Positions 5,174 through 34,826 of a stretch of 37,410 bases of DNA are shown here, piece by piece. The notes below the pieces were generated by a model. It had not been told where the DNA came from. It saw only the letters and a program-made list of their open reading frames with translations, and ran no database searches. The translations under genes were made by a program, and so were the position numbers. The stretch lies in the IMG/VR virus record IMGVR_UViG_3300044530_001005, positions 1 to 37,410 of that record, one strand, 5' to 3'. Within the stretch, counting starts at the first letter, position 1. Every line of letters starts with the position of its first letter. The DNA is from a virus.

Positions 5174-5181
5174 TATAAATA
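5174..5181 (+). promoter_or_regulatory. T4-type late promoter core TATAAATA
   Basis: An exact match to the T4 late promoter core. It lies only five bases before the ATG at 5187, which would give an almost leaderless transcript for the nitroreductase-like gene. Confidence 0.65.
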
Positions 5182-5186
5182 CTATT

Positions 5187-6083: not shown

Positions 6084-6100
6084 ATTGAATTATATTATAA

Positions 6101-8406: not shown

Positions 8407-8407
8407 A

Positions 8408-9599: not shown

Positions 9600-9606
9600 A
9601 TAAATA
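9599..9606 (+). promoter_or_regulatory. T4-type late promoter core TATAAATA
   Basis: An exact core 22 bases upstream of the ATG at 9629. It overlaps the first base of the minus-strand gene's start codon and faces the minus-strand core at 9616-9623. Confidence 0.65.
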
Positions 9607-9615
9607 AGTATATAT

Positions 9616-9623
9616 TATTTATA
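9616..9623 (-). promoter_or_regulatory. T4-type late promoter core TATAAATA (minus strand)
   Basis: TATTTATA on the plus strand reads TATAAATA on the minus strand. It is placed 16 bases before the start codon of the minus-strand operon that begins at 9599. Confidence 0.6.
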
Positions 9624-9628
9624 ATACT

Positions 9629-11943: not shown

Positions 11944-11951
11944 ATAATAAT

Positions 11952-12716: not shown

Positions 12717-12722
12717 TACGAT

Positions 12723-13310
12723 ATGTATTCTAATCTGGCTTTTTTACCTATTAAAGTAGATTTTTTTAATGATTTTAATATTATAGAAGATTTTCCTAAT
12801 AAATTTCATTTTTGGAACTATAAACAATTACTAGACGAAAATAACAAATCAAATTATGATGTAAAATCTTGGCGTACAGATTTAAATACAGAATACGATT
12901 TCGTTAAAAAATTAGTAGAACAATTACCCTACGATAATTTATCTAGTGTAAGAATAACAAAACAATTACATCCGGTTTTAAAACATTTGGATATAACAAC
13001 GCCTGATTGTCCTTTAAACATATACGAAGATTTTGTAAAAAATGAACCTTGTGGATATAGATTTGTTTTGTTAAACAAAAATACTTTTTTACAATTTTTT
13101 ATTAAAGAACAATGGGTAACAGCTAATTTGCCTGAAAATACATATTGTTATTTAATGAATACAACTAAACTATTACATAGAGTTTTATCTTTTGATAATA
13201 TCAGTGAAAGAATTACAATATATGTAAGAGGTAATGTTAATAAAGAAAAACATTTAAAAAATATAGAAAATAATTTAAAGCTTTACGAAAAGTACGCTTT
13301 ATATATGTAA
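12723..13310 (+). CDS. 2OG-Fe(II) oxygenase-like protein
   Basis: A 195-residue protein with H88-L-D90 (LKHLDITTPD), H152 (TKLLHRVLSF) and R163 (SERITIYVRG), an HxD...H...R arrangement with spacing typical of small 2OG oxygenases. The strand YRFVLLNKNTFLQFF lies between the motifs, as expected for the double-stranded beta-helix. It follows the desaturase gene after six bases and its 3' end overlaps the convergent gene by 12 bases. The motif match is moderate and the substrate unknown. Confidence 0.55.
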   Translation: MYSNLAFLPIKVDFFNDFNIIEDFPNKFHFWNYKQLLDENNKSNYDVKSWRTDLNTEYDFVKKLVEQLPYDNLSSVRITKQLHPVLKHLDITTPDCPLNIYEDFVKNEPCGYRFVLLNKNTFLQFFIKEQWVTANLPENTYCYLMNTTKLLHRVLSFDNISERITIYVRGNVNKEKHLKNIENNLKLYEKYALYM

Positions 13311-14048
13311 AAGTTTTAAATAAGGTTTATTTAATTTAGCAAAAACTCTTAATTGTATTCTTTGACTTTTAACTTCAGTAGTACAATGTAAACAAGCATC
13401 ATCAAAATGCCAAGCTTTATGTTTACTTTCATCTATCATAAATTTTTTACCAGTTCTATAATCTTGTATCCAAAGATTTGCACCACCATCGGCTATATTT
13501 AATGTTATAGAACAAAAACCTTTATCATAAAACATTTTATTAGTTTGGGGGCCACTATCTTTATGTACAACACCAATACTAGGTGGTTCTTGTAATATAC
13601 AACGTACAGTTAAAGGATATTCAATTGGTAATGATTCTATAATACTTTTAGTATAAGATATTTGTAAATCTTCACGCCAAGACCAAGGAGAAGTATATTT
13701 TATCCATAAGGGCAATCTATCGTTATTTTCAAATTTGCCTTCCCAAGATTCTTTTTGAGATTTTTCTTTTTCAGGTAAATAAGTCAAATTTAACATTTGA
13801 AAAGTATTATATTCTCCTTTAACTAATTTTCTTTCTCCGTTTTCTTGTACGTAATGATGTATATGTTTATTCTTTTCAAAAATAACTTCAGGAAAAATAT
13901 CACCATTTGGGTCCCACCTACTATGGCCTTTATCATTGTAGTCTGTGGTAGCCACCATACTTTTTTCAAATACATTGTTTGATAATAATTCATCTTTGAT
14001 TTTTTGTTGGTCAAAATCAAAATCAATACTAGCCCATACTGGTATCAT
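13299..14048 (-). CDS. 2OG-Fe(II) oxygenase-like protein
   Basis: A 249-residue protein with H162-K-D164 (GVVHKDSG), the strand CSITLNIADGGANLWI, H221 (ACLHCTTE) and R230 (KSQRIQLRVFA), an HxD...H...R set. It appears paralogous to the plus-strand gene at 10455, with matching order and spacing of these blocks, but lies in the opposite orientation. It is the last gene of a three-gene minus-strand operon and overlaps its upstream neighbour by 20 bases. Substrate unknown. Confidence 0.65.
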   Translation of the reverse strand: MIPVWASIDFDFDQQKIKDELLSNNVFEKSMVATTDYNDKGHSRWDPNGDIFPEVIFEKNKHIHHYVQENGERKLVKGEYNTFQMLNLTYLPEKEKSQKESWEGKFENNDRLPLWIKYTSPWSWREDLQISYTKSIIESLPIEYPLTVRCILQEPPSIGVVHKDSGPQTNKMFYDKGFCSITLNIADGGANLWIQDYRTGKKFMIDESKHKAWHFDDACLHCTTEVKSQRIQLRVFAKLNKPYLKLLHI

Positions 14049-14658
14049 TATATTCCTTTGGTAAATATTTTTCTTTAAATTCTTTCAAAGAACAACTTAT
14101 TAACTTAACTGCTATTTTTTGTTTCGTGTTATTGATATTATATACGTTATCTAAAAAAATTAAATCATTATAAAAGTTAGAATTTTTATTACCTAATGTT
14201 ACTGCTTTTTTGTCTTTCACTCTTTTTAAAAATTTAATTAACCATTCGTTATATAGGTTAAAGGTAAAAACAACTGCTTTAACATTTAATTTTTTAGCTT
14301 CTTCAAATTGTTTTGGTAATAAGTAATCGCCTTGCCACCATTTTTTTCTGTCATTAAGATTTGTCCAAGTACGAGAACCTAATATCATAATATCATCTGA
14401 CCAAGGACTTATATAACAACCACTAGCCGCTATTGGTGTTTTATCTTTTAATAATACAAAAAATTTACCTTTATCAAATCTTTTTTTATTAACAATACTA
14501 TACATTAGTGATGATTTATTATTTTGCCAATCTTTCCAATTAACATTTTTAGATGCTACACTATTATCTTTTTCGGAAAGTTTACACATTTCTTCTAAAT
14601 TTTTTTTATAATCTTTCCAGTTTAAACTGTTTATAGACAATACTTCAATATTATTCAT
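14029..14658 (-). CDS. GNAT-like acyltransferase
   Basis: About 209 residues from the ATG at 14658. A TTG five codons upstream (14673) is a less likely start, because the ATG overlaps the preceding stop by eight bases (ATGAATAA) in the usual coupled manner. The strands FFVLLKDKTPIAASGCYISPW and DDIMILGSRTW match GNAT beta2-beta4, and KAVVFTFNLYNEWLIKFLKR matches the strand and helix leading to the 'N..a...y.k.GF' position. A canonical CoA loop is not clear, so the assignment is by fold pattern. It lies between two 2OG-like genes in a minus-strand operon. Confidence 0.5.
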   Translation of the reverse strand: MNNIEVLSINSLNWKDYKKNLEEMCKLSEKDNSVASKNVNWKDWQNNKSSLMYSIVNKKRFDKGKFFVLLKDKTPIAASGCYISPWSDDIMILGSRTWTNLNDRKKWWQGDYLLPKQFEEAKKLNVKAVVFTFNLYNEWLIKFLKRVKDKKAVTLGNKNSNFYNDLIFLDNVYNINNTKQKIAVKLISCSLKEFKEKYLPKEYNDTSMG

Positions 14659-15118
14659 TGTATTTTTTTTCAATAATTCTATTAGCTACTTGTTCAAAAC
14701 TTTCATTATCAATAGATATTTTAAATAACAATCTTTCACTATTGCCATTTATAACACTATGCGGTTGAGTAGTATCTAGTAAAGCATTTTTATAGAAATA
14801 ATTTTTACTGTTTATTATTATAGCCGTGTTATTTTCACTTAATAAAAAATTTAAAGAACATTTTGTAGTATTATCTGTATGTGTGTTTATATAGGCATTA
14901 GGCTTAAGCCAATAAAATCTAGGTGTGCCTACAATTTCAAAATCTTTCATAATTTGTTCTATATAATTGCCTGAATATATGCTAACCTTCCAATCTGTAA
15001 AAACTTTATTTGGATAACGACCGTCTGTGTGAAATATAGATAATTTTTTAGCTTCTTCTGATTCTTTTAAAATCAAATCTTTTTTAAGTTCGTACTTTAA
15101 ATGTAATAAAGGTTGCAT
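14651..15118 (-). CDS. Small 2OG-Fe(II) oxygenase-like protein
   Basis: About 155 residues from the ATG at 15118; the longer frame would need a TTG at 15127. It contains H83-T-D85, H123 (TTQPHSVING) and R132 (SERLLFKISID) when numbered from that longer frame. This HxD...H...R pattern and the preceding strand with W73 and P76 are typical of small phage 2OG oxygenases. It is the first gene of the minus-strand operon. A minus-strand late core at 15147-15154 lies 28 bases upstream of its start. Substrate unknown. Confidence 0.6.
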   Translation of the reverse strand: MQPLLHLKYELKKDLILKESEEAKKLSIFHTDGRYPNKVFTDWKVSIYSGNYIEQIMKDFEIVGTPRFYWLKPNAYINTHTDNTTKCSLNFLLSENNTAIIINSKNYFYKNALLDTTQPHSVINGNSERLLFKISIDNESFEQVANRIIEKKYNE

Positions 15119-15146
15119 AATTATCAATTTTTAAATAATATATAAC

Positions 15147-19290: not shown

Positions 19291-22200
19291 ATGGCAGATT
19301 TTAAACTAGGTAGAATTAAATTTAAATGGAGAGGTGACTGGTCAACCTCTACAGGTTTTCTTATTGATGACGTAGTAAAATACGGTGGTAATACTTACGT
19401 CTGTATTGTTAACCATACTTCTCAATCTACAAGTCCAGGATTTTATACAGATTTAACGGCTGCTAAATGGTCACTACAAGCTGAATCTCTTTTCTTTAAA
19501 GGCACATATGCTGCCTCTACACATTACAAATTAAATGACGTAGTAAAATATGGTGCTAGACAATACCGTTGTACAACTCAACACACATCAGCTGCGACTG
19601 TAGGTGGTGTAGCAATATTAAACGCAGCTAATTTTGAATTATATATTGATGCCACAGATTATAAAGGCACATATACTACAAGCACTTATTACAAAGTAAA
19701 TGATGTAGTTAAATACGGTGGCAGTTTATATATTTGTACTACTGCTCATACTTCATCAGCAGGTGCTTCATCTTTTAATGAAAGTAATTTTAGTGCTTAC
19801 ACAGAAGGTTTACAATTTGAAGATTCTTGGAGTTCAGCAACTGCTTATCAAAAAGGCGATATAGTAACTTATGGTGGATATGCTTACGTTGCTTCTTTAG
19901 AAATTCCTTCTGGTTCAGCTGCACCTGTTGCTTCATCTCTTGATTGGGATTTAATTGTTCCAGGATTTAAAGCTCAAGGAGATTGGATTTCAGGTAATCA
20001 ATACACATATAAAACAGGAGATACTGTTAAATTTGGTGGATATGCATACGTTTGCATAGTAGATACCTTTAATGATGGTTCTACTAATGTTACACCTATA
20101 AACACGTCTTTTTGGACAAAAGTAGTAGAAGGATTTACTTGGAAAGGAACATACAGTGCAATTACAACTTATTTTAAAGGCGATACTGTTGAATATAATT
20201 CCAGTTCTTATGTCGCAATCGCTCATACTATTTTAAACGTAACGCCAGGAACAGATGTAACAAAGTGGCAATTAATTGCCGCAGGTGATAGTAATGCAGT
20301 TGTTACAACACGTGGAGATATTTCATATAGAAATGCTTCCGCTCCTGCAAGATTACCAATTGGTGTTGTCGGTTCAGTTTTAACTTCAAATGGTTTAGAA
20401 CCAGTTTGGTCTAACGCAGGAAGTAGAGGAAGTTTATTCGTTGCAAATAACGGAGATGACACAAATCCAGGAACTTCTTTATTACCATTTAAAACAATTG
20501 AGTACGCTTTATCACAAGCGTCAAAAGGTGACGTAGTTACAATTACAGGCATAACAGGCGGTACAGGTGGTATTTCAGGAACTTATTCAGTAACCGCTAC
20601 AGGAGGAACTGGTACAGGATTTGCAGGACGAATTGTTGTTGACAGTTCAACAGTAACCGCAACTTTAACAATTACAAACGGCGGTAAAAATTATACTGCT
20701 GGTGATACTTTAACTATTTCTAATGCTCAATTAGGTGGCACACCTGCTACTAATATGACATTTACTGTTGAGTCGGTTTCAGTAGGAGATATTATAAATG
20801 TTGCTGGAGGAGTTTATAGAGAACAAATGCCTTTAGTAATTCCTGCCGGTGTTACTCTAAAAGGAGAAAGTTTAAGAACAACAGAATTAAGACCTGCTAC
20901 AGGCAGTTCATCTACAATTGCTACAGTGACAAGAACATCAGGTGGAATTGGTGGAACACCAGGTACTTACCTTTATAAACACCAATCATCAACATCAGGT
21001 AGTGGACAAGGAGCTTGTATCACAGTTGTAAAAGATGGTTCATCCGTTCCTACAATTACAGTTGTACACGGCGGTTATAATTATGCAGTGTCCGACACTA
21101 TCACAATTCTAGGATTTTCATTAGGTGGTGGTTCAGATTTAGTTTTAACGGTTACGGCTTTAGAAAACAATAATGCTGCTTATTGTTTCTTATGTAATGA
21201 CACAAACAATATAAGATGGTTTACGTTTAGAGGATTTACAGGTATTGCAACACATACTGGTTTAGGTGCTGTTATTACATCTTTAGACCCAGAAGGAAAC
21301 ATTGCATCTCAATCACCTTATATACAAGATTGTACAGTAGTATCAAATAACGCTTGTGGTATTAAAATAGACGGATTTTTACACACATCAGCAACAAGTA
21401 ATAAATCAATTCTAGCAAATGACTTTACACAAATTAACTCAGACGGTATAGGAGTTTGGGCATTAAACGGAGGCCGAGGTGAAATGGTTTCCGTGTTCAC
21501 TTATTATTGTGATAAATCTTTTTATGCAACAGGCGGTGGATTTATACGAGGATTAAATTGTTCTTCTGCTTACGGAGAAGAAGCTCTAGTTGCTGAAGGA
21601 GAACTATCACAAAATACGTTAGCACCAATTTTTGAAACTCCTGTAAGAACAAGATCAAGAGGTAGAACAATTAAATATAATGCAACTACTTTTTCAGGTG
21701 GAAATACGCCAGCTTCTTTTGTAATAGGTCAAACTATAGTTGGTAATACTTCAGGTGCTACAGGTACAATTTTTAGAATAAATTTAACAGGAGAAAGATT
21801 ACATTTAGATCCTGCTACAGGAGCCTTTACACAAGGTGAAACGATTACAGTTACAACAACAAGTGGCACATTTACAGTACAGATACCAAACACAGCTGCA
21901 GGTATTTCAGGCAACGGTGCAAAACAAGCAGGATTTTTCGTAGAAGTAGAATCAACTGACGGCACTTTAACTCCTTCAGGTGTAATTAAAATTGGAGATA
22001 ACGTAAAGATAGGAAATAATCCTAATTACTTTATTGTAAACGGTGTTACAAATGAAGATGCTGCTACACAAACAGTTCAAGTTCGTTTAGTATCAGAAGT
22101 TTCAACACTAGACGCTTATCCAGATAATACAGCAGTTGTATTTTCACGTAAATATTCTGCATTAAGATTTACAGGACACGATTTTTTAGATATAGGTACA

Positions 22201-22989
22201 GGAGATTTTGTCACAACAAATTATCCAGGTACTCCTTCTCAACCGGCCGACCAAGCAGACGAAGTTGAGTTTAGTGACGGAGGCCGAGTTTATTGGACTT
22301 CTACAGACCAAGGTGGAGATTTTAGAGTTGGAGATTTATTCCGTATTCAACAGGCAACTGGTATTGCAACTTTAAATGCTGACGCTTTTGACCTTTCAGG
22401 ATTAACAGAATTACAATTAGGAACTATTGGTGCTCAGTTAGGTGCCACAATTAACGAGTTTTCTACAGACCAAGAAATGTTAGGAGATTCTAATACGGCC
22501 GTTCCTACAGAAAATGCTGTAGTAGGTTATACACAAAGAGATAATATGGGCACTGGACATTTAGTGCCGCCTACAGGAACAACAGCTGAAAGACCAACAG
22601 GCGCAGAATTATTTACTGGAGGTATTAGATATAATTCTTCGTTAGTAACTTGGGAAGGTTATAATGGTACACAATGGACTGGATTGGGAGGTGGTAACCC
22701 TTGGCAATCAACATCATCAAGTATTACAATTGCTGCTAACGACAGATACTTTGTAAACACTTCAAGTGCTGCTGTAACAATTACTTTACCAGCTTCACCA
22801 CAGGCAGGAGACCAGGTAAGTTTAATAGATTTAGCGGGTACTTTTGATACAAACAATTGTACTGTTGCAAGAAATGGTAATAAAATAATGGGATTAACAG
22901 AAAATTTAGTGTTATCTATAGAAGATGCTGGAATTACACTTGTATATTCAGGTGCAACATATGGATGGAAATTAGCAAATAATATTTAA
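19291..22989 (+). CDS. Large tail fibre with CBM-like repeats and beta-helix
   Basis: A 1232-residue protein. Residues about 10-325 contain six repeats of the type 'W.g.ws..t.Y..gDvVkYgg..Y.c...hts', like the chitin-binding CBM5/12 fold. At residues 375-400 a segment LFVANNGDDTNPGTSLLPFK followed by TIEYAL matches the DUF1565-type entry of a right-handed beta-helix, and a later V.GGVYREQMPLVIPAGVTL continues it. Two inserted 'GG..Y..gD.lti' modules interrupt this region. Residues about 1095-1135 (TGTTAERPTG... IRYNSS... WEGYNGTQW) match a module also present in the next protein. The C-terminus is a beta domain common in phage fibres. Predicted to bind host surface glycans. Confidence 0.85.
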   Translation: MADFKLGRIKFKWRGDWSTSTGFLIDDVVKYGGNTYVCIVNHTSQSTSPGFYTDLTAAKWSLQAESLFFKGTYAASTHYKLNDVVKYGARQYRCTTQHTSAATVGGVAILNAANFELYIDATDYKGTYTTSTYYKVNDVVKYGGSLYICTTAHTSSAGASSFNESNFSAYTEGLQFEDSWSSATAYQKGDIVTYGGYAYVASLEIPSGSAAPVASSLDWDLIVPGFKAQGDWISGNQYTYKTGDTVKFGGYAYVCIVDTFNDGSTNVTPINTSFWTKVVEGFTWKGTYSAITTYFKGDTVEYNSSSYVAIAHTILNVTPGTDVTKWQLIAAGDSNAVVTTRGDISYRNASAPARLPIGVVGSVLTSNGLEPVWSNAGSRGSLFVANNGDDTNPGTSLLPFKTIEYALSQASKGDVVTITGITGGTGGISGTYSVTATGGTGTGFAGRIVVDSSTVTATLTITNGGKNYTAGDTLTISNAQLGGTPATNMTFTVESVSVGDIINVAGGVYREQMPLVIPAGVTLKGESLRTTELRPATGSSSTIATVTRTSGGIGGTPGTYLYKHQSSTSGSGQGACITVVKDGSSVPTITVVHGGYNYAVSDTITILGFSLGGGSDLVLTVTALENNNAAYCFLCNDTNNIRWFTFRGFTGIATHTGLGAVITSLDPEGNIASQSPYIQDCTVVSNNACGIKIDGFLHTSATSNKSILANDFTQINSDGIGVWALNGGRGEMVSVFTYYCDKSFYATGGGFIRGLNCSSAYGEEALVAEGELSQNTLAPIFETPVRTRSRGRTIKYNATTFSGGNTPASFVIGQTIVGNTSGATGTIFRINLTGERLHLDPATGAFTQGETITVTTTSGTFTVQIPNTAAGISGNGAKQAGFFVEVESTDGTLTPSGVIKIGDNVKIGNNPNYFIVNGVTNEDAATQTVQVRLVSEVSTLDAYPDNTAVVFSRKYSALRFTGHDFLDIGTGDFVTTNYPGTPSQPADQADEVEFSDGGRVYWTSTDQGGDFRVGDLFRIQQATGIATLNADAFDLSGLTELQLGTIGAQLGATINEFSTDQEMLGDSNTAVPTENAVVGYTQRDNMGTGHLVPPTGTTAERPTGAELFTGGIRYNSSLVTWEGYNGTQWTGLGGGNPWQSTSSSITIAANDRYFVNTSSAAVTITLPASPQAGDQVSLIDLAGTFDTNNCTVARNGNKIMGLTENLVLSIEDAGITLVYSGATYGWKLANNI
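19324..20270 (+). repeat. Six tandem CBM5/12-like protein repeats
   Basis: Six copies of a repeat of about 50-55 residues begin near 19324, 19495, 19660, 19816, 19969 and 20137. Each has a Trp or Tyr-containing start (GDW/GTY/DSW), a 'Y..gD.V.Y/Kygg' centre and a 'Y.c' strand. The DNA copies have diverged, so this is an old protein-level repeat rather than a recent DNA duplication. Confidence 0.75.
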
Positions 22990-23014: not shown

Positions 23015-24655
23015 ATGGCAGATTTAAGAGATTTTACAGGAAAAAACCGAAAATTCACTGGTACTATTGGTGAAAAAATATCGCCAGGCACAACAGCTGA
23101 AAGAGATACTTCTTTTGGTGGCGGTACTTTAAGATTTAATTCATCTACAGCTTTAATGGAATATTACACAGGTACAGAATGGAAATCAATTGATGCTCCA
23201 CCAACAATTACTTTTGTCACAGTTGATGGTGGTGCTGATACAACTTCTGGACAAGTTAATAACGAATCATCAGGAAATGTCACAATTCAGGTAAAAGGCA
23301 GTTTGTTTGATACAATCGGTGGAAACGTTACATTCATAGGAACAAGTGAAACTTTAACGCCGGCTACTCAAACAAGAAATAATAGTGGTTTATTTACTTG
23401 CGTACTTCCCGCTTCTTCTTTTGATGATGCGAATAGTCCTTATACAGTTAAAGTAACAAATGGTTCAGGTCTCTCGGCTGAGCTTATAGCTGGTATTTCT
23501 GCTGACCAATCTGCTCCTGCTTTTATAACTTCGGCCGGTTCATTAGGTACTATAGGTGATGCTGCTCGTTCTTCTTATACATTATCAAGTGCAGCTGCAA
23601 CAGACGCCGACGGCGACACAATTACATATTCGATTTCATCCGGTTCTTTACCAGCAGGATTATCTTTAAACTCATCTACAGCTGCAATTACAGGTACAGC
23701 AACAGAAGTAGTTTCAAACACAACATCAACATTTACAGTTTCAGCTTCAACAGCAGCATCTACATCTACAAGACAATTCACTATTACAGTAAATGCTCCA
23801 GTAGTTACTTCATACACTTCAACAGGAGCTTTTACATTTACCGTACCATCAGGAATAACGGCCGTATCGGCACTTCTTGTTGCTGGTGGTGGAGGTGCTG
23901 CTTGGATAGGAGGCGGTGGTGGTGGCGGTGGTGTAGTTACACACACTTCATTTCCCGTAACTCCTGGCGGTACAGTTCCAGGCTCAGTGGGAACAGGAGG
24001 ACCAGCTGCTCCTGGAGGTGGTTATGCTAGTCAAAGTCCTTGGGATGGAAGAGGTGGTGATACTACATTTGGTACATTAACAGCAAAAGGTGGAGGTTCA
24101 ACATCAGGATGGATCTTTCAACCTAGTGGACCTACTTGGCCAAACAGTCCTGGTGGTTCAGGAGGTGGAGGCACAGGTTCTAATTTAGGAGGATTAGCCA
24201 CACAACCTAGTACTTCAAATCCTGGAGCTACAAATTACGGTTTTCCAGGTGCTATGGGAGGTTGTAACCCCGGAGGAAATAATGGCACCACGGGTGCTGG
24301 ACAACATTCAGGAGGCGGAGGCGGAGGAGCTGGAGCAGCAGGCGGCCATCCAACACAAAATGGTCCAGGAAACACGAGATCCAATCAACAAGCAGGTAGA
24401 TTTGGAGGAAATGGCCTGACAAGCACAATTTCTGGCTCTTCATTAGTTTATGGAGGAGGTGGTGCTGGTTCATCACACGGTGGTGGATATAATATAGGAC
24501 CTGTCCCAGGAGGAACTGGCGGGGGTGGTGCATCTAATTCTGGTACATCAGGTACACCTGGAACAAATAATAGGGGCGGCGGTGGAGGCGGCGGACATTA
24601 TCCTGATAATAATGGTGGTAGTGGCGGCTCTGGTATAGTTATTATAAGGTATTAA
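23015..24655 (+). CDS. Polyglycine-type tail adhesin with Ig-like domain
   Basis: A 546-residue protein. Residues 24-60 (SPGTTAERDTSFGGGTLRFN, then YYTGTEWKSI) repeat a module of the preceding fibre. Residues 175-260 carry a putative-Ig (He_PIG) domain (DADGDTITYSISSGSLPAGL, SLNSSTAAITGTA). From about residue 290 the chain is extremely Gly-rich with many GGGG runs and ends GGSGGSGIVIIRY, a hallmark of marine phage glycine-rich adhesins. It is comparable in kind to the polyglycine-II receptor-binding domain of T-even gp38-like adhesins (analogy, not homology shown). It is likely the receptor-binding tip. Confidence 0.75.
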   Translation: MADLRDFTGKNRKFTGTIGEKISPGTTAERDTSFGGGTLRFNSSTALMEYYTGTEWKSIDAPPTITFVTVDGGADTTSGQVNNESSGNVTIQVKGSLFDTIGGNVTFIGTSETLTPATQTRNNSGLFTCVLPASSFDDANSPYTVKVTNGSGLSAELIAGISADQSAPAFITSAGSLGTIGDAARSSYTLSSAAATDADGDTITYSISSGSLPAGLSLNSSTAAITGTATEVVSNTTSTFTVSASTAASTSTRQFTITVNAPVVTSYTSTGAFTFTVPSGITAVSALLVAGGGGAAWIGGGGGGGGVVTHTSFPVTPGGTVPGSVGTGGPAAPGGGYASQSPWDGRGGDTTFGTLTAKGGGSTSGWIFQPSGPTWPNSPGGSGGGGTGSNLGGLATQPSTSNPGATNYGFPGAMGGCNPGGNNGTTGAGQHSGGGGGGAGAAGGHPTQNGPGNTRSNQQAGRFGGNGLTSTISGSSLVYGGGGAGSSHGGGYNIGPVPGGTGGGGASNSGTSGTPGTNNRGGGGGGGHYPDNNGGSGGSGIVIIRY

Positions 24656-24660
24656 AAAAT

Positions 24661-24957
24661 ATGGCAAAATCTTTTTCAATAGTTCGTCCTCGTAATAAGG
24701 TAACAAACGAATTGTCTATAAGTACACAAATAAACGTGTATGAATTTGATGCGTTGTTAGTAACTGTAGGATTTCCTACTAAGATAAGTTATAATGATAG
24801 TAATAGAGAGGAAATGATTAATATTATTGAAAAAACAATTGAGGAACATTATTTTTGGAAAGAAAAAGAAATGGTTGGTAAACATAGACTAACTGATGAG
24901 GAAAAACAAAAATTAAATACTGTCATAGGGTCATTTAATTTTTCCAATTGTATATAA
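24661..24957 (+). CDS. Hypothetical protein
   Basis: A 98-residue protein beginning MAKSFSIVRPRNKVTNELSI, five bases after the adhesin stop. It has a beta-like N-terminal half and a helical, charged C-terminal half (EEMINIIEKTIEEHYFWKEK). No known family is recognised. Its stop overlaps a late-promoter core for the next gene. Possibly a chaperone for the preceding adhesin, judging only from position. Confidence 0.55.
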   Translation: MAKSFSIVRPRNKVTNELSISTQINVYEFDALLVTVGFPTKISYNDSNREEMINIIEKTIEEHYFWKEKEMVGKHRLTDEEKQKLNTVIGSFNFSNCI

Positions 24958-24980: not shown

Positions 24981-25427
24981 ATGTCTAGTGAAAAAAACAA
25001 AGAATATCTTAAAAAAAAACAGAAAAATTTTAAATTAAAAGGTTCTGACGAAAATCTTTATAATTTTGATGATTTGTGTGACGAACATAAAAAAGTTGCA
25101 AATAATATTTTAGAAACATTTAATGAGGTTAACGGTGATAAATTATTATTTGAACAAACTATCAAAACACGATTTAAATTGTTAGGTGAAAAAAATATTA
25201 AAAAAGAAGATAATCCTTTTGTTCAAATTATTGAAAAAGAAGGAACGTACTGTGCATTACAAGGTTATGTTACTGAAGTTGAAAATGGTATGTTAGTAAA
25301 ATATCCGATTGTAAGTTTTGTTGCTGATATAAGACAATACGAAAAAGTTTATAGAAAAATATTATTTGATGTAAAACAATTTTTTATAGATAATCCCGAG
25401 GCTTTAAAAATAAAAAATACCGATTAA
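24981..25427 (+). CDS. Hypothetical protein
   Basis: A 148-residue Lys-rich protein with a charged, mostly helical N-terminal half and the C-terminal strand-like segment GTYCALQGYVTEVENGMLVK. No known motif is recognised. It is transcribed from its own late core and is separated by 30 bases from the following oxygenase gene. Confidence 0.55.
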   Translation: MSSEKNKEYLKKKQKNFKLKGSDENLYNFDDLCDEHKKVANNILETFNEVNGDKLLFEQTIKTRFKLLGEKNIKKEDNPFVQIIEKEGTYCALQGYVTEVENGMLVKYPIVSFVADIRQYEKVYRKILFDVKQFFIDNPEALKIKNTD

Positions 25428-25457: not shown

Positions 25458-26078
25458 ATGAGTACTGACGAATATATAACTCTGCCAAATATAGGCATTT
25501 TAAAAACAAAAATACCTGACAATCTGTATTTAGATTTGTTAGATGAATGTTTGCATTGTGAAAATAATGAACGTAGAATTACGGGTTTAACTTCTTCTGG
25601 TGTACCAAATCATTACGTTTTAGAAAAAAATTTAAATCAATTCAAAGAATACATATCGTCTGTTACCTTACGGTACGAAAAACAGTCTGGATATTTAAAA
25701 ACTATTAAACACTTAGATAGAGATTGTTATTTAACTATTGATACCCCTTGGATTAATTTACAAAAAAAAAATGAATTTTTACCTAATCATTTTCACGATG
25801 GTGTAATAAGTTATAGTTTGTGGATGAAAATTCCTTATGATGAGCAAGAAGAAATTAATTATAAAAAATTAAAAGATCATCAAAGTCTTTATTCCTTTGA
25901 GTTTACTTATGCAAACATTTTAGGTAATATATCAACAACGCCTATAAAGGCTACAAAAGAAATTGAAGGTTATTTAATAATGTTTCCTTCAAATTTAACT
26001 CATTGTGTGTATCCTTTTTATTCAAGTGATGGTACTAGAATTTCAATATCAGGAAATATAAAATTTTTAACAAAATGA
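25458..26078 (+). CDS. 2OG-Fe(II) oxygenase (2OG-FeII_Oxy_5 type)
   Basis: A 206-residue protein matching the phage 2OG oxygenase family with motif 'N.H.H...ysg..Yl..P'. Here N110-H111-F-H113-D114 is followed by GVISYSLWMKIP, then FPSNLTHCVYPFYSSDGTRI with H182 and R194. The FPS-x-L-x-H-x-V-x-P...R block is very characteristic, and the pattern fits well apart from the degenerate first motif. It is first in a run of oxygenase and halogenase genes (25458-28099). Probably a cytoplasmic enzyme acting on a small molecule or protein side chain; the target is unknown. Confidence 0.78.
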   Translation: MSTDEYITLPNIGILKTKIPDNLYLDLLDECLHCENNERRITGLTSSGVPNHYVLEKNLNQFKEYISSVTLRYEKQSGYLKTIKHLDRDCYLTIDTPWINLQKKNEFLPNHFHDGVISYSLWMKIPYDEQEEINYKKLKDHQSLYSFEFTYANILGNISTTPIKATKEIEGYLIMFPSNLTHCVYPFYSSDGTRISISGNIKFLTK

Positions 26079-26082
26079 TGGT

Positions 26083-26562
26083 ATGAAAACTATAAAAAAT
26101 TTTTTAGATAATTCTATTTTTTTTGACTTGAAAAAACAATTAATGGGTCAGGATTTAGAATGGCACTATCACAATAGTCAAACACCTTTGGATACTGATG
26201 ACGAATATTTTGACCATTGTTTTTATAACAAATATGAAATATCTTCACATAGATTTGATTTGATTAAACCTATTGTAGAAAAATTAAAATGTAAATCTTT
26301 AATTCAGGTTAGAGCTAATCTTTTAATAAAAAAAGAAAAAGCAAAGTTTTCAGAATTTCATACTGATTATAGTTATGAGTGTAATACTGCTATATTTTAT
26401 ATAAACAGTTGTAATGGATACACGGAATTTTTTGATGAAAAAAAATCAATAGTAAATTGCGAAGAAAATAAAATAGTTATTTTTAATTCTCAAATAAAAC
26501 ATAGAGCTGTATCTCAAACTGATACAAAACAAAGAATTGTTATTAATTTAAATTATTTTTAA
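26083..26562 (+). CDS. Small 2OG-Fe(II) oxygenase
   Basis: A 159-residue protein with H93-T-D95 (FSEFHTDYSYE), H140 (QIKHRAVSQTD) and R151 (RIVINLNYF), an HxD...H...R set. It is clearly related to the 164-residue protein at 34332, sharing the order 'R.NL...... HTD ... YvN..NGyT ... H...... R..IN.NY' to the last residue. It is four bases behind the preceding oxygenase and four bases before the halogenase gene, so the three are likely co-expressed. Substrate unknown. Confidence 0.75.
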   Translation: MKTIKNFLDNSIFFDLKKQLMGQDLEWHYHNSQTPLDTDDEYFDHCFYNKYEISSHRFDLIKPIVEKLKCKSLIQVRANLLIKKEKAKFSEFHTDYSYECNTAIFYINSCNGYTEFFDEKKSIVNCEENKIVIFNSQIKHRAVSQTDTKQRIVINLNYF

Positions 26563-26566
26563 TATT

Positions 26567-28099
26567 ATGAAACTTAAAAAAATTATGATTGTGGGTGGCG
26601 GCTCGGCTGGTTGGATGACTGCAGCTACTCTTATTAAACAATTTCCAAATTTAGATATAACCCTAATAGAGTCTCCTAATATTTCTACAGTAGGAGTAGG
26701 AGAAAGTACTATAGGTGGTATAAGACTTTGGACAAATTGGTTGGGTATAGACGATAAAGAATTTTTAAAATACACAGATGGTAGTTATAAATTAAGTATT
26801 AAATTTACCGATTTTTACAAAAAAGGAGAGGCCTTTCACTATCCTTTTGGGCGACCAGATATTACTGATTGTAGTTCTGGATTAAACGATTGGTGGTGGA
26901 AAAAATTTAATTATTCAGAAACTCCATATAGTGATTATGCAACTTCTTATTTTCCTCAAATGGCTTTAGTAAATGAAAACAAATGTTTTTATAATGAAAA
27001 AAATGAAATTCCTTTTTTATTTAAAAAAGATACAGCATTTCATTTTGATGCAACAAAATTTGCTTTATGGTTAAAAGACAAATATTGTTTGCCTAGAGGA
27101 GTAAAACATTTAAAAGAAGAAGTTAATACAGTTGAACTTGGTGAAGAAGGTATCGTGTCGGTAAATAATCATTTAAAAGCAGACTTGTTTGTTGATTGTA
27201 CTGGATTTAAATCTTTGTTATTAGATAAAACTTTAAAAGAACCTTTTGAATCTTATGCAGATATGTTACCTAATAATTCTGCTTGGGCTACAAGAATAAA
27301 TTATAAAAATAAAAAAGAAGAATTGGTTGGTTACACAAATTGTACAGCTATTCAAAACGGATGGGTTTGGAATATACCATTGTGGAGTAGAATAGGAACA
27401 GGTTATGTTTATTCTGACAAATTTGTTTCCGATGATGACGCATTAAAAGAATTTCAAAAACATTTAAAAACTGACGAATTGGAATTTAAAAAAATTAAAA
27501 TGCGTGTAGGCATACATAAAAGATTGTGGGTTAAAAATGTTGTTGCTATAGGACTGGCAGCTGGTTTTATAGAACCACTTGAAAGTAACGGCCTATTTAC
27601 AGTACACGAATTTTTATTAAAATTAATAAGAAATTTAAATAGAGATAATATTTCTCAATGGGATAGAGATAATTTTAATTATGATTGTAAAATAATGTTT
27701 AGAAACTTTGCTGAATTTGTTGCTTTACATTATGCACTATCTCATAGAGATGATACTGAATACTGGAAATCAAATTTAAATAAAGAGTGGTCAAAAGATT
27801 TGATTGATTTGAAAAAAACATTGGTTACAGGATTTGTACACGCTGCTTTATGTAGAACACACGATTTCCAATTTAATCCTAACGAAGGATTGCATTGTAT
27901 ATCTGCTGGTATGCATTGGGGTCCTACAGAAAAAACAACAATAGATTGGTTAAATAGTTATAGAGATTTGAATGATTTAAGAAATTTTGAAAAACAATGT
28001 ATTGAAAAATTAAACGAAAAAAAAGAAATTTGGAAAAACGCTATAAAGGATAAACCTAGTTTACACGATTTTTTAAAAGAAAATATTTATAAAGATTAG
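26567..28099 (+). CDS. FAD-dependent halogenase (tryptophan-halogenase family)
   Basis: A 510-residue protein with the GxGxxG FAD-binding motif of this family at residues 10-16 (GGGSAGW), GVGEST at 43-48, a candidate catalytic lysine K75 (DGSYKLSIKF), the diagnostic WxWxIP at W266-V-W268-N-I-P271, and FIEPLES at 334-340, where E339 matches the glutamate that assists Lys in PrnA/RebH. Full length and complete motifs indicate an active enzyme that uses FADH2, O2 and halide to make a halogenating species. A flavin reductase is not seen in the window. A marine phage relative, VirX1 of cyanophage Syn10, is an established iodinating enzyme. The substrate here is unknown. Confidence 0.88.
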   Translation: MKLKKIMIVGGGSAGWMTAATLIKQFPNLDITLIESPNISTVGVGESTIGGIRLWTNWLGIDDKEFLKYTDGSYKLSIKFTDFYKKGEAFHYPFGRPDITDCSSGLNDWWWKKFNYSETPYSDYATSYFPQMALVNENKCFYNEKNEIPFLFKKDTAFHFDATKFALWLKDKYCLPRGVKHLKEEVNTVELGEEGIVSVNNHLKADLFVDCTGFKSLLLDKTLKEPFESYADMLPNNSAWATRINYKNKKEELVGYTNCTAIQNGWVWNIPLWSRIGTGYVYSDKFVSDDDALKEFQKHLKTDELEFKKIKMRVGIHKRLWVKNVVAIGLAAGFIEPLESNGLFTVHEFLLKLIRNLNRDNISQWDRDNFNYDCKIMFRNFAEFVALHYALSHRDDTEYWKSNLNKEWSKDLIDLKKTLVTGFVHAALCRTHDFQFNPNEGLHCISAGMHWGPTEKTTIDWLNSYRDLNDLRNFEKQCIEKLNEKKEIWKNAIKDKPSLHDFLKENIYKD

Positions 28100-28130: not shown

Positions 28131-28898
28131 ATGATTACAACAAATAAATATTGGTGTTTTAATTCTCAGTTATCACCTGAAGTATGTGATGAAATAATTA
28201 AATTAGGAACATCTTCAATTGAAAAAAATAAAAAACTTGGAATTTCTTCTGTTGCTTATACTTTTGGTAATAAAGAAAAATCTGATGACAAAAAAGTTTC
28301 TCAAGGCGAACTTTCTATTCAACAATTAAAAAATACGCAAGATAAAAATAATATAGAAGATGTATATATAAGAGATAGTGAAGTATCCTGGTTAAATGAT
28401 AAATGGTTATATGATACTATTTTACCTTATGTTAGAACAGCTAATAAAAATTCAGGTTGGAAATATGATATAGATTATTTTGAGAATTTTCAATTTACTG
28501 TTTATAATTCACCAGGAGGTTTTTATGGTTGGCACAATGATATGTCAACAGATCATCACGCTTCATACAAAAGATATATTTATGGAATAACTGAAGTTCC
28601 TTTAAGAAAAGATGGACACTTACCTTTTGGATATACAAAAGATAATAATTTAGTAGGCAAATTAAGAAAAATAAGTGTAACTATAAATTTAACAAATCCT
28701 TTAAGTTATGAAGGAGGAAATTTAAAATTTGATTTTGGAAATCATTTTGAAGGAGATAGATTTTATGAATGTGTTGAAAGTAGACAACAAGGTTCTATTA
28801 TTGTTTTTCCTTCTTATTCATATCACTGTGTAACTCCTGTAACAAAAGGGACACGATATAGTTTAGTACTATGGTGTTCTGGAAAGCCTTTTAAATGA
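28131..28898 (+). CDS. PKHD-type 2OG-Fe(II) oxygenase (hydroxylase)
   Basis: A 255-residue protein. The N-terminus (CFNSQLSPEVCDEIIKLG) is the standard start of prolyl-4-hydroxylase-like phage oxygenases. H135-N-D137 (FYGWHNDMST), the strand ISVTINLTNPLSYEGGNLKF, H232 (SYHCVTPVTKGTRYSL) and R242 complete the 2OG/Fe(II) site. The spacing and 'yeGG.L.f......g....FpSy..H.V.PVt.G.RyslV.W' block are classic for the PKHD family. It is first gene of the unit that leads to ho1 and pcyX. Its stop overlaps the next start (ATGA). Substrate unknown. Confidence 0.88.
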   Translation: MITTNKYWCFNSQLSPEVCDEIIKLGTSSIEKNKKLGISSVAYTFGNKEKSDDKKVSQGELSIQQLKNTQDKNNIEDVYIRDSEVSWLNDKWLYDTILPYVRTANKNSGWKYDIDYFENFQFTVYNSPGGFYGWHNDMSTDHHASYKRYIYGITEVPLRKDGHLPFGYTKDNNLVGKLRKISVTINLTNPLSYEGGNLKFDFGNHFEGDRFYECVESRQQGSIIVFPSYSYHCVTPVTKGTRYSLVLWCSGKPFK

Positions 28899-29536
28899 CA
28901 TCTATAGAATATTTTAAAGAAAACAAATATATAGTAATAAGAAATTTTATTCCTACTGACACTGTACCATTATATTATGAATATTGTAAAATGCAGGTTC
29001 AATCAATAGATTATAAAATAACAAATTTTAAAAATTCATATGATGAAAAATGGGATGGAAAATTTACAGACACTCAGGCTACAAATGTTTTTAGTAAATA
29101 CGGCGACATTTTAATGGATTCAACTTTAAAATTGCTAACTTATAAAGCAGAGGAATACACTGGATTAAAATTACTACCTAATTATTCTTATTGGAGATTA
29201 TATGAAAAAGGCAGTATATTAGAAAAACATAAAGATAGACCTAGTTGTGAAATTTCTGCAACCTTAAACTTAGGAGCAAATTTATCAAATATTGATACAC
29301 AAATTTATCCTAACTATCAATGGCCAATATTTGTTTCAAGCAATGGTAAAGATATACCGATTCATTTAGAGCCAGGAGATGCTATGATTTATAGAGGATG
29401 CGAAATAGAACATTGGAGAGATGAATTTATAGGATTAAATAATGCTCAAGTGTTTTTTCATTGGAATGAAAAAAACGGACCATATTCTATAGAAAATGAT
29501 GGAAGACCTTTACTGGGAATTCCTTCTGTCAGTTAA
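28895..29536 (+). CDS. 2OG-Fe(II) oxygenase-like protein (phage P4H-like)
   Basis: A 213-residue protein beginning with 'NKYIVIRNFIP', the typical start of 2OG oxygenases. H112-K-D114 (LEKHKDRPSCEISATLNLG), then a 'PGDAMIYRG.eieHWRDeF.G' block with H173 and a terminal FFHW fit a small P4H-like family in T4-like marine phages. An arginine at the usual 2OG position is not obvious, so 2OG binding may use another residue. It overlaps the previous stop (ATGA) and is two bases from the heme oxygenase gene. Substrate unknown. Confidence 0.7.
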   Translation: MTSIEYFKENKYIVIRNFIPTDTVPLYYEYCKMQVQSIDYKITNFKNSYDEKWDGKFTDTQATNVFSKYGDILMDSTLKLLTYKAEEYTGLKLLPNYSYWRLYEKGSILEKHKDRPSCEISATLNLGANLSNIDTQIYPNYQWPIFVSSNGKDIPIHLEPGDAMIYRGCEIEHWRDEFIGLNNAQVFFHWNEKNGPYSIENDGRPLLGIPSVS

Positions 29537-29538
29537 TT

Positions 29539-30117
29539 ATGTTAAATATTAAAGAATTAACTTTAGAAGAACATAAAAAAGCTGAAGAAGAACCTTTTGT
29601 GCAAACTCTTATGTCTGGCCAAATACCACCAGACCTTTATGCCACATATTTGTTTAATCTATTACAGTGTTATTCAACACTAGAGAAATATGCTTTTGAA
29701 AACGGCCTGTTTAGACAAACACCTGGCCTTGACAGAGCGCAAAAAATAGACCACGACTTTCGTTCACTATGGAATCAACCGAATAAACCACACATCACAG
29801 ATAGCACTTTAAGATACGTTTATCACTTAGATACAATTAAAAGTGATGCTGAAAAATTATATGCACATATCTATGTAAGACATATGGGAGATTTATATGG
29901 AGGACAAATGATTAAAAGAAAAACACCTGGCCCTAATACATATCTTGTTTTTTTAAAACCTGAAGAAACAAAAAGAGTTGTAAGAGAATTAATAAATCAA
30001 TATATGAACACGTATCAAGTAAACGTGGTCGCTGAAGCTAAATTATGTTTTGAATATGCTACAGAACTATTTAAGGAAATGAATGATTTGGGAAAATCTT
30101 ATACAGTGCAAGAATAA
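29539..30117 (+). CDS. ho1: Heme oxygenase
   Basis: A 192-residue protein of the biliverdin-producing heme oxygenase family. Proximal heme ligand H12 lies in LTLEEHKKAEEEPFVQTLMS, and the distal helix motif is GDLYGGQM at residues 117-124 (family GDLSGGQ, with D118 as the oxygen-activating aspartate). Lys- and Arg-rich C-terminal helices also fit. The enzyme opens heme to biliverdin IX-alpha, CO and Fe(II), using reduced ferredoxin in bacteria and phages. Its stop overlaps the bilin reductase gene by 35 bases, so the two are translationally linked. The cofactor supply is host-derived. Confidence 0.93.
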   Translation: MLNIKELTLEEHKKAEEEPFVQTLMSGQIPPDLYATYLFNLLQCYSTLEKYAFENGLFRQTPGLDRAQKIDHDFRSLWNQPNKPHITDSTLRYVYHLDTIKSDAEKLYAHIYVRHMGDLYGGQMIKRKTPGPNTYLVFLKPEETKRVVRELINQYMNTYQVNVVAEAKLCFEYATELFKEMNDLGKSYTVQE

Positions 30118-30766
30118 TATCATAGACATATTAGATTTAAATTGTGTAGAATACTTTGAGGAAGGTATGACACGATTTAATAAAGAAGGTTGGGTCAATC
30201 GTACTTGGAAAAATGACAACATAAGACGAGCACACGTTGACGTGGTTGATGCAAGAGATACTAAAGGTTTATGGATGATGCACGTTTGTTTATTTCCTGG
30301 CCTTACAAATGGTGGCCCAATATATGGATTTGATGTAATAGCAGGTAAGAATAAAGTAACAGGTGCATTCCACGATTTTTCACCATTACTTAAAAAAGAA
30401 CACCCATTAACGAATTGGTTTATCAATGAAACAAAATGGTATAAACCGAGTAAAGAGAGAGAGTTACCAGATTGGGCAAAGGCCATCTTTAGTGGTGGTA
30501 TGATTGCGGCTGGTAATATACAAACAGAAGAAGAATTGTTCCAAGTCACAACAATGGCCGAAAGTAATTTACATAACTACTTAGATAAAATTGTTAATTT
30601 CAAAAATGACTCAAAACAAGAAGATGTTATAAAGGCACAGAATTACTACTGTGAATATCAACAACAAAACCCACATACACCTAGAGTTATGTTATCTTTA
30701 GGTTTGAAAGAAGAAGATGTAATAGCTTTCAATAAAGACCATCTTTTTCCAAAGATAAATACTTAA
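30083..30766 (+). CDS. pcyX: Ferredoxin-dependent bilin reductase, PcyX-like
   Basis: A 227-residue member of the ferredoxin-dependent bilin reductase family, from residue alignment with PcyA: IRRAHVDVVDARD, MMHVCLFPG, GPIYGFDVIAG and FHDFSP all match in order. D84 aligns with the catalytic PcyA D105 and H67 with H88. D53 replaces PcyA E76. D219 near the C-terminus is a candidate counterpart of PebS D206. The retained His together with Asp for Glu76 points to PcyX, the phage enzyme reported to make phycoerythrobilin from biliverdin, rather than PebS or PcyA. It is a soluble cytoplasmic enzyme. ATG at 30083 overlaps ho1 by 35 bases; a start at residue 29 would lose conserved sequence. Confidence 0.85.
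   Translation: MIWENLIQCKNNIIDILDLNCVEYFEEGMTRFNKEGWVNRTWKNDNIRRAHVDVVDARDTKGLWMMHVCLFPGLTNGGPIYGFDVIAGKNKVTGAFHDFSPLLKKEHPLTNWFINETKWYKPSKERELPDWAKAIFSGGMIAAGNIQTEEELFQVTTMAESNLHNYLDKIVNFKNDSKQEDVIKAQNYYCEYQQQNPHTPRVMLSLGLKEEDVIAFNKDHLFPKINT
30754..30761 (+). promoter_or_regulatory. Variant late promoter core GATAAATA
   Basis: One mismatch to TATAAATA (first base), at the end of the pcyX gene and six bases before the ATG of the outer-membrane protein gene. Cyanophage late promoters tolerate a variable first base. Confidence 0.4.
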
Positions 30767-30767
30767 T

Positions 30768-31868
30768 ATGAAATTAGATAAGAAATTGATAATACAATAT
30801 GTTGCAGTTATTATAATATTTTTAATTGCTTTACTTTTAACTTCAATTGTAAAAGCAGATGAAAAGAAAATATCTGAATTAGAGAAAAGAATATCACAAT
30901 TAGAATCAAACAAACTATCAATACCTAAAGGCCTTTTTATTGCAGGTGAAGTTGAAGCTTATTATGATGACCGTACTTACGATAGTGGTTTAGACTCAAG
31001 AGCTGAATTGCAAATAGGCATTACACATAAGTTTAATAATCATTATGTAAATTGGACTGGCGCTTCAATGTTATACGATACTTATTATTCACTTGATACT
31101 ACTTTAAACAATACGGTACAAGAAAAACAAATGGGATTTGGTAATGACTATTACAGATTATATCTTGGTGAAACAGACGCACAACGTTTAGGTTTTGCTA
31201 AGACACCTAAAGTAGGTGCACCATTAATTATTACACAAACAAATTCAAGGTTAGACCATAGAGAGAAAACAGTTCTAGCGATTGGTGGTTTTAATTGGGA
31301 CGATCAATTTGATTTTGATTCATATAGATTAAGAAATGATTTACCATTAGGTTTAGTTGTAGGTTGGGATAACGAGAGAGATGCTTTATATACAAGTGCA
31401 ACAGTAGGACTCTTTGGTTATGCTGATTTATCTTATATGCAAATTAAAAATCCAAAAAGTTCAACAAGTGTTTCTAGCTTTAATGAAAGAACACAACAAG
31501 GTTGGTCATTGGGTGGCAGTTTATATCGTTGGGACATTCCTTTAATATGGGGTACAGAAGTTTGGGAAGATAAAGATACAGGTTTTGCTGACAAAAACAG
31601 ATATGACTACGGTGTGTTATATAGTTTTAATGAAAAAATTTATGGTACTGTTCATAGAACAGAAAATGATGACCTAGGATTTACAGGTAACTATTACGGA
31701 CTTGTTTACAATATACATACAGAAGATGATAAACACAAACGACCAGATAAAAGAGCTGGTTTAGAGTTTGGTTTGTATTACCACGATAAAGAACAAACTT
31801 CAGTGTTTACAGGTGTCTATAAAGATTATAACCCTCAATTATTAGCGACAATACGATATAAGTTCTAA
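30768..31868 (+). CDS. Secreted beta-barrel, porin-like outer-membrane protein
   Basis: A 366-residue protein. A basic N-terminus and hydrophobic core (about residues 9-28) followed by SIVKA, then DEKK, form a typical signal peptide with likely cleavage near residue 31. A coiled coil follows (ISELEKRISQLES). The rest is beta-rich with alternating aromatic and polar residues and many Tyr, Trp and Gly, ending in LLATIRYKF. A C-terminal aromatic residue, particularly Phe, is the hallmark recognised by the BAM complex. This suggests a porin-like trimer. It is unusual for a phage. The gene lies directly after pcyX and before the neck gene gp13. Function unknown: nutrient uptake or superinfection exclusion are possibilities. 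Confidence 0.8.
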   Translation: MKLDKKLIIQYVAVIIIFLIALLLTSIVKADEKKISELEKRISQLESNKLSIPKGLFIAGEVEAYYDDRTYDSGLDSRAELQIGITHKFNNHYVNWTGASMLYDTYYSLDTTLNNTVQEKQMGFGNDYYRLYLGETDAQRLGFAKTPKVGAPLIITQTNSRLDHREKTVLAIGGFNWDDQFDFDSYRLRNDLPLGLVVGWDNERDALYTSATVGLFGYADLSYMQIKNPKSSTSVSSFNERTQQGWSLGGSLYRWDIPLIWGTEVWEDKDTGFADKNRYDYGVLYSFNEKIYGTVHRTENDDLGFTGNYYGLVYNIHTEDDKHKRPDKRAGLEFGLYYHDKEQTSVFTGVYKDYNPQLLATIRYKF

Positions 31869-34331: not shown

Positions 34332-34826
34332 ATGTTTTATAAAATAGTTGATAATTTTTTACCAAAAAATGAATTTAAAATAATTCAAGATTTATTTTAT
34401 TCTCAAAATTTTCCTTGGTATTACAATAAAGGAGTTTCTTACACGAATATTTCACCAGATGGCATTTATTTTACTCATTTATTTTATTTTTTTGAAAAAG
34501 ATAATTTAAATGTCAGCAATCATTACAATCATATTTTACCAATTATTAGTAGATTAGATGTTAAGTCTATTTTACGAATTAAAGGTAATCTTTATTCAAA
34601 AACAAATACAATTTTTGAACACGGCGCACATACAGATTTTGATTTTAACCATAAAGGATTTTTATATTATGTTAATACTAACAATGGTTTTACTAAACTA
34701 AGTAATGGTATTAAAGTAGAATCTGTTGAAAATAGAGGTTTATTTTTTGATCCATCATTAATTCATAATAGTAGTACTTGTAGTGATAGTGATAGTAGAA
34801 TTAATATAAATTTTAATTATTTATAA
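34332..34826 (+). CDS. Small 2OG-Fe(II) oxygenase inserted between gp15 and gp16
   Basis: A 164-residue protein with H100-T-D102 (EHGAHTDFDF), H145 (SLIHNSSTCSDSDSR) and R156 (RININFNYL), a full HxD...H...R site. It is a paralogue of the protein at 26083, with the same order 'R.kgNLy ... HtDf ... lYYvNtnNGfT ... H ... R.nINfNYl'. It has its own late core and lies between neck and terminase genes, so it is expressed with virion assembly. Substrate unknown; a virion protein is a possible target given the setting (inference). Confidence 0.78.
   Translation: MFYKIVDNFLPKNEFKIIQDLFYSQNFPWYYNKGVSYTNISPDGIYFTHLFYFFEKDNLNVSNHYNHILPIISRLDVKSILRIKGNLYSKTNTIFEHGAHTDFDFNHKGFLYYVNTNNGFTKLSNGIKVESVENRGLFFDPSLIHNSSTCSDSDSRININFNYL

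Follow-up and report, generated by a model that had tools for sequence, protein, structure and literature searches.

A viral halogenase recurs with prolyl-hydroxylase-like oxygenases behind glycine-rich tail adhesin genes in marine phages

We analysed a viral DNA stretch of 37,410 bases (IMG/VR record IMGVR_UViG_3300044530_001005; hereafter the window), a fragment of a T4-like phage with 31% GC, focusing on its flavin-dependent halogenase gene (26567..28099, + strand). As judged from its sequence, the window carries an intact halogenase of the VirX1 type with adjoining prolyl-4-hydroxylase (P4H)-like and further 2-oxoglutarate (2OG) oxygenase genes, and this combination recurs behind genes for glycine-rich (Gly-rich) adhesins. 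Because the halogenase, in a comparison that took in about 100 other phages, is habitually found with prolyl-hydroxylase-like enzymes just behind the gene for the host-gripping tail tip, its natural target may be that tail protein and not a drug-like small molecule. The interpretation that we favour, and to which we give close to an even chance, is of an exchangeable marine-phage cassette that directly follows a Gly-rich tail-tip adhesin gene and whose products would modify that adhesin by prolyl hydroxylation and aromatic halogenation. We hold more tentatively the broader proposal that such a dedicated post-translational cassette, combining P4H-like hydroxylation of a Gly/Pro-rich tip with halogenation of aromatic side chains, is the native role of viral halogenases, VirX1 included.

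The terminase encoded by the window is 74.5% identical to that of Pelagibacter phage Mosig EXVC030M (Mosig), and synteny between the two extends from the tail fibres through the neck genes. These comparisons place the window in a myophage of Pelagibacter, with the isolate Mosig as a relative, and make a SAR11 host likely.

The halogenase and its oxygenase neighbours

The halogenase (510 aa; PF04820, E 4e-110; PHROG 2928, E 6e-148) is the last of three complete open reading frames (ORFs) on the + strand, at 25458-26078, 26083-26562 and 26567-28099, separated by gaps of 4 and 4 bases. An earlier sequence-only reading of this DNA had described an intact halogenase with GGGSAGW, K75, WVWNIP and E339 that follows two 2OG oxygenases at 4-base gaps, and our analysis bears out both the motifs and the spacing. 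GGGSAGW begins at residue 10 and matches the FAD-binding GxGxxG pattern, WVWNIP begins at residue 266 (WxWxIP) and E339 lies within EPLES. Across 22 diverse homologues K75 is invariant and E339 at least 90% conserved; these residues are equivalent to K79 and E346 of PrnA. With its motifs catalytically intact, the enzyme should halogenate aromatic rings.

The closest PDB chain is VirX1 from cyanophage Syn10 (6qgm; E 9e-106, 358 bits), the nearest solved structure, which has the same motifs and catalytic lysine and glutamate; tryptophan 5-halogenase follows (2wet, 287 bits). On sequence criteria the window enzyme is VirX1-type, nearer to VirX1 than to the tryptophan halogenases. It is about 41% identical to the Syn10 halogenase over 92% of the query, although VirX1 comes from a cyanophage and the window enzyme from a pelagiphage. 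It also matches PDB entry 5uao, which is MibH according to PMC10858898. The C-terminal 106 residues (405-510) have no significant PDB match; a full-length PrnA match reaches residue 453, and the region of the PrnA/RebH tryptophan site is not clearly conserved. Cyanophage 'prnA' tryptophan halogenases (PHROG 2928), annotated as making chlorotryptophan, belong to the same family and have been recorded as accessory genes since 2010 (PMC3037559). The halogenase thus adds one more member to a known family, VirX1-type and known in cyanophages since 2010, and what is new is its genomic context. Outside marine phages, an annotated halogenase-family homologue with 27% identity is present in Campylobacter phage CP21 (NC_019507, 121133-122161).

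The enzyme needs reduced flavin from a partner outside the identified genes of the fragment. The sequence-only reading had reported no flavin reductase, and we likewise recognized none among the scanned window proteins; because the window is a 37-kb fragment, this absence means little. The sole candidate, the ORF at 5187-6083, was rejected, as its resemblance to oxidoreductases of the NAD(P)H and nitro/flavin types is insignificant (E 0.46-0.58). The FMN reductase annotated in Mosig belongs to a different cluster, and no window protein is homologous to it.

The two genes upstream of the halogenase encode a PF13759-type 2OG-Fe(II) oxygenase (25458..26078, +, 206 aa; PF13759, E 2.7e-11; PHROG 81, E 3.7e-24) and a small 2OG-oxygenase-like protein (26083..26562, +, 159 aa; PHROG 274, E 1e-41; weak PF13759 match, E 0.01; H93-x-D95...H140). 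Two further genes, omitted from the sequence-only reading, directly follow the halogenase: a P4H/PKHD-type 2OG oxygenase (28131..28898, +; PF13640, E 7e-12) and a P4H/PHD-like 2OG oxygenase (28895..29536, +); below, these families are named by the start position of the window gene. AlphaFold2 models of the two downstream proteins were built on alignments with 42 (28131) and 37 (28895) homologues. In Foldseek searches the best PDB matches of the 28131 model, which is weak at residues 141-167, were Pseudomonas putida P4H and the PBCV-1 collagen prolyl hydroxylase, and those of the 28895 model (pLDDT 95.7) were P. putida P4H, Dictyostelium PHD and PHD2, the HIF prolyl hydroxylase. The matches across both models include 4iw3, 4j25, 5c5t and PHD2, with TM-scores of about 0.5-0.66, moderate values such that the models support fold and class but not substrate. 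The iron-binding triad is invariant in both families (H135/D137/H232 and H112/D114/H173, respectively). At the level of fold, the models therefore support assignment of both proteins to the 2OG double-stranded beta-helix enzymes, nearest to protein prolyl-4-hydroxylases.

Several database labels in this region are at odds with these assignments. We rejected 'ferrochelatase', the label of the 28895 protein, because the protein has no Pfam match and its model matches 2OG oxygenases; the label has been used for this family in the literature (PMC9599517). The 26083 protein carries the PHROG label 'DNA endonuclease V', yet its PHROG links to 2OG families. More generally, the PHROG (2954, 274, 1644) or GenBank labels 'ferrochelatase', 'DNA endonuclease V' and 'minor coat protein' sit on 2OG-oxygenase-like proteins (28895-29536; 26083-26562; 34332-34826), as judged from the model for 28895 and from motif and weak family matches for the others.

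Phage genes are tightly packed and the window holds several further 2OG-like ORFs besides the halogenase neighbours, so close spacing alone means little. We therefore looked at recurrence in halogenase-centred loci from viral contigs (a first sample of 59, and a set of 96 non-redundant loci; a scan with 28131 alone gave only 4 loci). A 2OG gene is the immediate neighbour in 60 of the 89 halogenase loci with both neighbours present; for control genes taken from those contigs the figure is 47 of 442 (Fisher 5e-28). The density of 2OG genes is highest at +/-1 of the halogenase and falls outward. All four window families recur near halogenases in the first sample, in shuffled order: 28131 in 41/59 loci, 25458 in 38/59, 28895 in 33/59 and 26083 in 26/59. 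In many cases the 28131-family gene and the halogenase gene share 4 bases. The sequence-only reading had proposed a comparison of gene order in related phages, with a lack of conservation as evidence against it; the neighbourhood proved to be conserved. The two upstream oxygenases that it named do recur, but we did not retain them as the key partners, since the downstream 28131 family is commoner, often directly adjacent and the best conserved of the adjoining partners. In uncultured viruses we also observed distinct halogenase paralogues arrayed in tandem, two to four at a time, among 2OG genes (L040:4911-11575; L041, L047, L055, L130, L134), down to 29% identical to the window halogenase.

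Linkage to glycine-rich tail adhesins

Five genes upstream of the halogenase lies the gene for a Gly-rich tail adhesin (23015..24655, +, 546 aa; PF21722 Gly_rich_2, E 7.5e-14; He_PIG; PHROG 2295), which the sequence-only reading had passed over and which we propose as the substrate. It shares PHROG 2295 with the adhesin of Sf-CH11 and is 57% identical to its Mosig counterpart. In relatives, many genes upstream of the cassette encode Gly-rich proteins that end in GGSGIVIxRY. Gly-rich domains of this kind form receptor-binding tips in phage fibres (PMC9608196). In 39 of 77 loci a Gly-rich adhesin gene is among the 6 genes that precede the halogenase, compared with 12 of 55 for the downstream side and 7 of 155 for the upstream side of control genes. 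In an independent reverse sample, for which Gly-rich adhesin loci were picked by their own end motif, 50 of 147 contigs have a 2OG gene among the 6 genes downstream of the adhesin, whereas 2 of 106 have one upstream.

The same arrangement is found in isolates. In syn9, S-RIM44, S-CREM1, S-WAM1 and P-TIM40 the order is tail fibre, Gly-rich adhesins (annotated as 'tail fiber assembly' or 'collagen-like'), a protein of ~160 aa, one or two halogenases and a stack of 2OG genes. Sf-CH11 has a variant order of fibre, adhesin, two 2OG genes, halogenase, 2OG gene and 'ferrochelatase'. The home locus of VirX1 (syn9/Syn10) shares the layout, and in Syn10 itself the same adhesin and ~160-aa families adjoin the halogenase.

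To gauge specificity we searched 50,697 phage records, 70 of which contain a VirX1-type halogenase. The His-rich adhesin family of S-CREM1 occurs in 19 records, all with a VirX1-type halogenase, and the ~160-aa protein in 20, all halogenase-positive. Syn9 gp35, whose gene precedes the adhesin block by two places, occurs in 290 records, at least 220 of them without a halogenase given that only 70 records have one. Because gp35 is so widespread, location in the tail region does not by itself explain the restriction of the adhesin to halogenase records.

The adhesin as a candidate substrate and the alternatives

The C-terminal domain of the window adhesin is rich in Gly, Pro, His and Trp (P 7.6%, H 1.9%, W 1.5%); it has 4 Trp and 5 His, as opposed to 2 His and no Trp in the Mosig counterpart. 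Across relatives, proline makes up 6.6% of the Gly-rich domain where 2OG genes lie downstream, 6.2% with a halogenase and 2.2% with neither, and background proline is equal. Downstream 2OG genes are present in 45 of 52 contigs with a Pro-rich adhesin and in 4 of 87 with a Pro-poor one (Fisher 3e-24). Proline also rises with the number of 2OG genes, from 2.2% with none to 4.7% with one and about 6.6% or more with two to four. Histidine is at 1.09% in adhesins with a halogenase and 0.43% in those with 2OG genes only (p 3e-7; in matched pairs, p 0.07 to 0.009).

In the mechanism that we envisage, the enzymes would modify the adhesin polypeptide once it has been translated. Prolines in its Gly/Pro-rich domain would be hydroxylated by the P4H-like oxygenases; Gly/Pro-rich proteins are the classical substrates of prolyl hydroxylases. 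The halogenase would draw reduced flavin (FADH2), O2 and a halide from the host, seawater being rich in both bromide and chloride. Hypohalous acid (HOX) formed at the flavin would pass to K75, and exposed aromatic residues of the adhesin (Trp, Tyr or His) would become halogenated. Together, hydroxylation and halogenation may alter the stability of the adhesin or its receptor binding. The residue modified, the halide used and the benefit are likewise ones that we infer. Flavin-dependent halogenases that act on peptidyl Trp are established: SrpI and MibH, from pathways for ribosomally synthesized and post-translationally modified peptides, halogenate Trp in ribosomally made chains, as proposed here for the adhesin (PMC10858898). 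Their substrates are small precursor peptides in biosynthetic clusters, whereas ours would be a virion adhesin.

Several observations weigh against this interpretation. The proline contrast is strong in pairs at 40% identity (41 up, 6 down) and modest at 50% (13 up, 6 down), but it is gone in the closest pairs (>=60% identity: 6 up, 6 down). Lineage is therefore a possible confounder of the proline pattern, and we keep the enrichment as a correlation and reject it as proof. In cyanophages, the adhesins next to halogenases have little proline and much histidine. Adhesin histidines may instead bind metal, as in the fibre tip of T4 gp37 (PMC6957217). Enrichment of Trp/Tyr as a signature of halogenation was also rejected, since a weak overall Trp signal (p 0.001) gave no robust difference in matched pairs. 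Some 30 loci with long upstream sequence have no Gly-rich gene there, and the 19 adhesin records represent about 8 distinct phages. Because the adhesin, the ~160-aa protein and the halogenase are adjacent, their restriction to the same records could reflect co-inheritance as a block. Nor is the linkage universal: Mosig has the same order of tail fibres, Gly-rich adhesin, 2OG set, heme oxygenase, bilin reductase and neck without a halogenase; the S-B64 halogenase lies elsewhere, in S-B64 and S-H35 after an SbcC-like gene; and that of HTVC008M lies between terminase genes, overlapped by a 2OG gene. Finally, VirX1 iodinates small aromatics in vitro (PMC8407142).

In one alternative, the halogenase and 2OG genes are passengers, cargo that collects in the host-recognition cluster, a known hypervariable site that runs from VrlC to the neck genes. 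Such cargo would lie near the adhesin only because insertions are tolerated there, and would act on host molecules. The pelagimyophage 'host recognition cluster' is indeed large, hypervariable and filled with unrelated genes (PMC7029224), the heme oxygenase and bilin reductase genes are inserted at the same place, further 2OG-like genes lie elsewhere in the window, and closest-relative pairs lack the proline contrast. Against it stand the strong directional bias of 2OG genes downstream of the adhesin in the reverse sample, the recurrence of the pattern with a different structural gene (a P22 gp10-like protein in cluster 9, identified by eye), the retention of halogenase and 2OG gene together at a different site in HTVC008M, and the confinement of the adhesin and ~160-aa families to halogenase records, in contrast to the broad distribution of gp35. 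We regard this alternative as rather unlikely, if still deserving of weight.

The sequence-only reading had taken the genes for a small-molecule tailoring set. On such a scheme the halogenase would act on free tryptophan or another aromatic metabolite, and 2OG-dependent oxidation would convert the product into a signal, an antibiotic or a resource-guarding compound. In vitro, many small aromatics are iodinated by VirX1, whose active site is open (PMC8407142), and roles for chlorotryptophan or in antibiotic protection have been proposed, and termed speculative (PMC2984593, PMC9964418). However, no core scaffold enzyme or precursor gene was seen among the annotated neighbours, whether in the window, in the isolate regions or in the other neighbourhoods that we looked at, although this was not a systematic search and very short ORFs were not included. 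The set sits directly behind Gly-rich adhesin genes, a constant linkage, its two best conserved oxygenase partners, both downstream of the halogenase, resemble protein prolyl hydroxylases, and the C-terminal region and Trp site of the halogenase do not clearly follow PrnA and RebH. We therefore consider small-molecule tailoring unsupported and doubtful.

We find it very improbable that the enzymes instead alter a protein or the envelope of the host, perhaps to keep out other phages. Glycosyltransferases encoded in the hypervariable cluster have been interpreted as surface-altering (PMC7029224), the window has a glycosyltransferase-like ORF at 2880-3611, and P. putida P4H, the structural match 4iw3, acts on EF-Tu. 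The enzymes have no export signal, as judged by eye, and modification of the host does not predict the link to adhesin composition.

Neighbouring genes and implications

Upstream of the adhesin, the window encodes a large tail-fibre protein (19291..22989, +, 1232 aa; PHROG 9851 tail fibre, E 4e-205) that is 55% identical to the Mosig tail fibre. Between adhesin and oxygenases lie two small genes: 24661..24957 (+, 98 aa), an ORF with no significant family match, and 24981..25427 (+, 148 aa; PHROG 10937, E 1e-8, a family without assigned function), with homologues at the equivalent position in Mosig and in locus L061, whose product is possibly a fibre-associated or chaperone protein. On the other side of the cassette are a heme oxygenase (29539..30117, +; PF01126, E 5e-18), at the equivalent position in Mosig, and a ferredoxin-dependent bilin reductase (30083..30766, +; PF05996, E 2e-18; 71% identical to Mosig), followed by neck genes. 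The two genes overlap by 35 bases, in a phage whose likely host lacks phycobilisomes; the pair is also in Mosig, matches the marine-phage hemO-pcyX cassette (PMC11480375) and probably has a function separate from that of the halogenase cassette. A 366-aa protein of porin-like appearance with an N-terminal hydrophobic segment (30768-31868), located between the bilin reductase and the neck genes, has no Pfam match and was not seen in Mosig or L061. A 2OG-like gene (34332-34826; PHROG 274) is flanked by genes for a tail sheath stabiliser and a terminase small-subunit-like protein. Before the tail fibres, a second dense enzyme cluster (2880-15127) contains glycosyltransferase-like, radical-SAM-like and SPASM ORFs (4228-4845, 4832-5173), a PP-loop ATPase, GNAT acetyltransferases, a fatty acid desaturase, an Asp/Arg-hydroxylase-like protein and several orphan 2OG-like proteins.

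The 28131 and 28895 families are likewise close together in HTVC023P-type pelagiphages, where the partner named 'ferrochelatase' itself has the 2OG/P4H fold; the passages of that paper that we consulted describe no link to a halogenase or adhesin (PMC9599517). Published accounts that we read treat the viral halogenase gene as making chlorotryptophan (PMC9964418, PMC2984593). In the papers that we consulted, to which the original VirX1 paper did not belong, we found nothing direct on hydroxylation or halogenation of phage adhesins and no adhesin or P4H link for viral halogenases.

VirX1 is of interest as a biocatalyst, and the published explanations for why viruses carry halogenases, such as antibiotic protection, have been described as speculative. 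The linkage described here makes the role of viral halogenases addressable in phages already in culture. It also corrects the 'ferrochelatase' and 'DNA endonuclease V' labels that have shaped published readings of marine phage genes. If the favoured interpretation is true, the receptor-binding tips of these phages would be chemically diversified after translation, adding a layer of recognition that is invisible in sequence alone.

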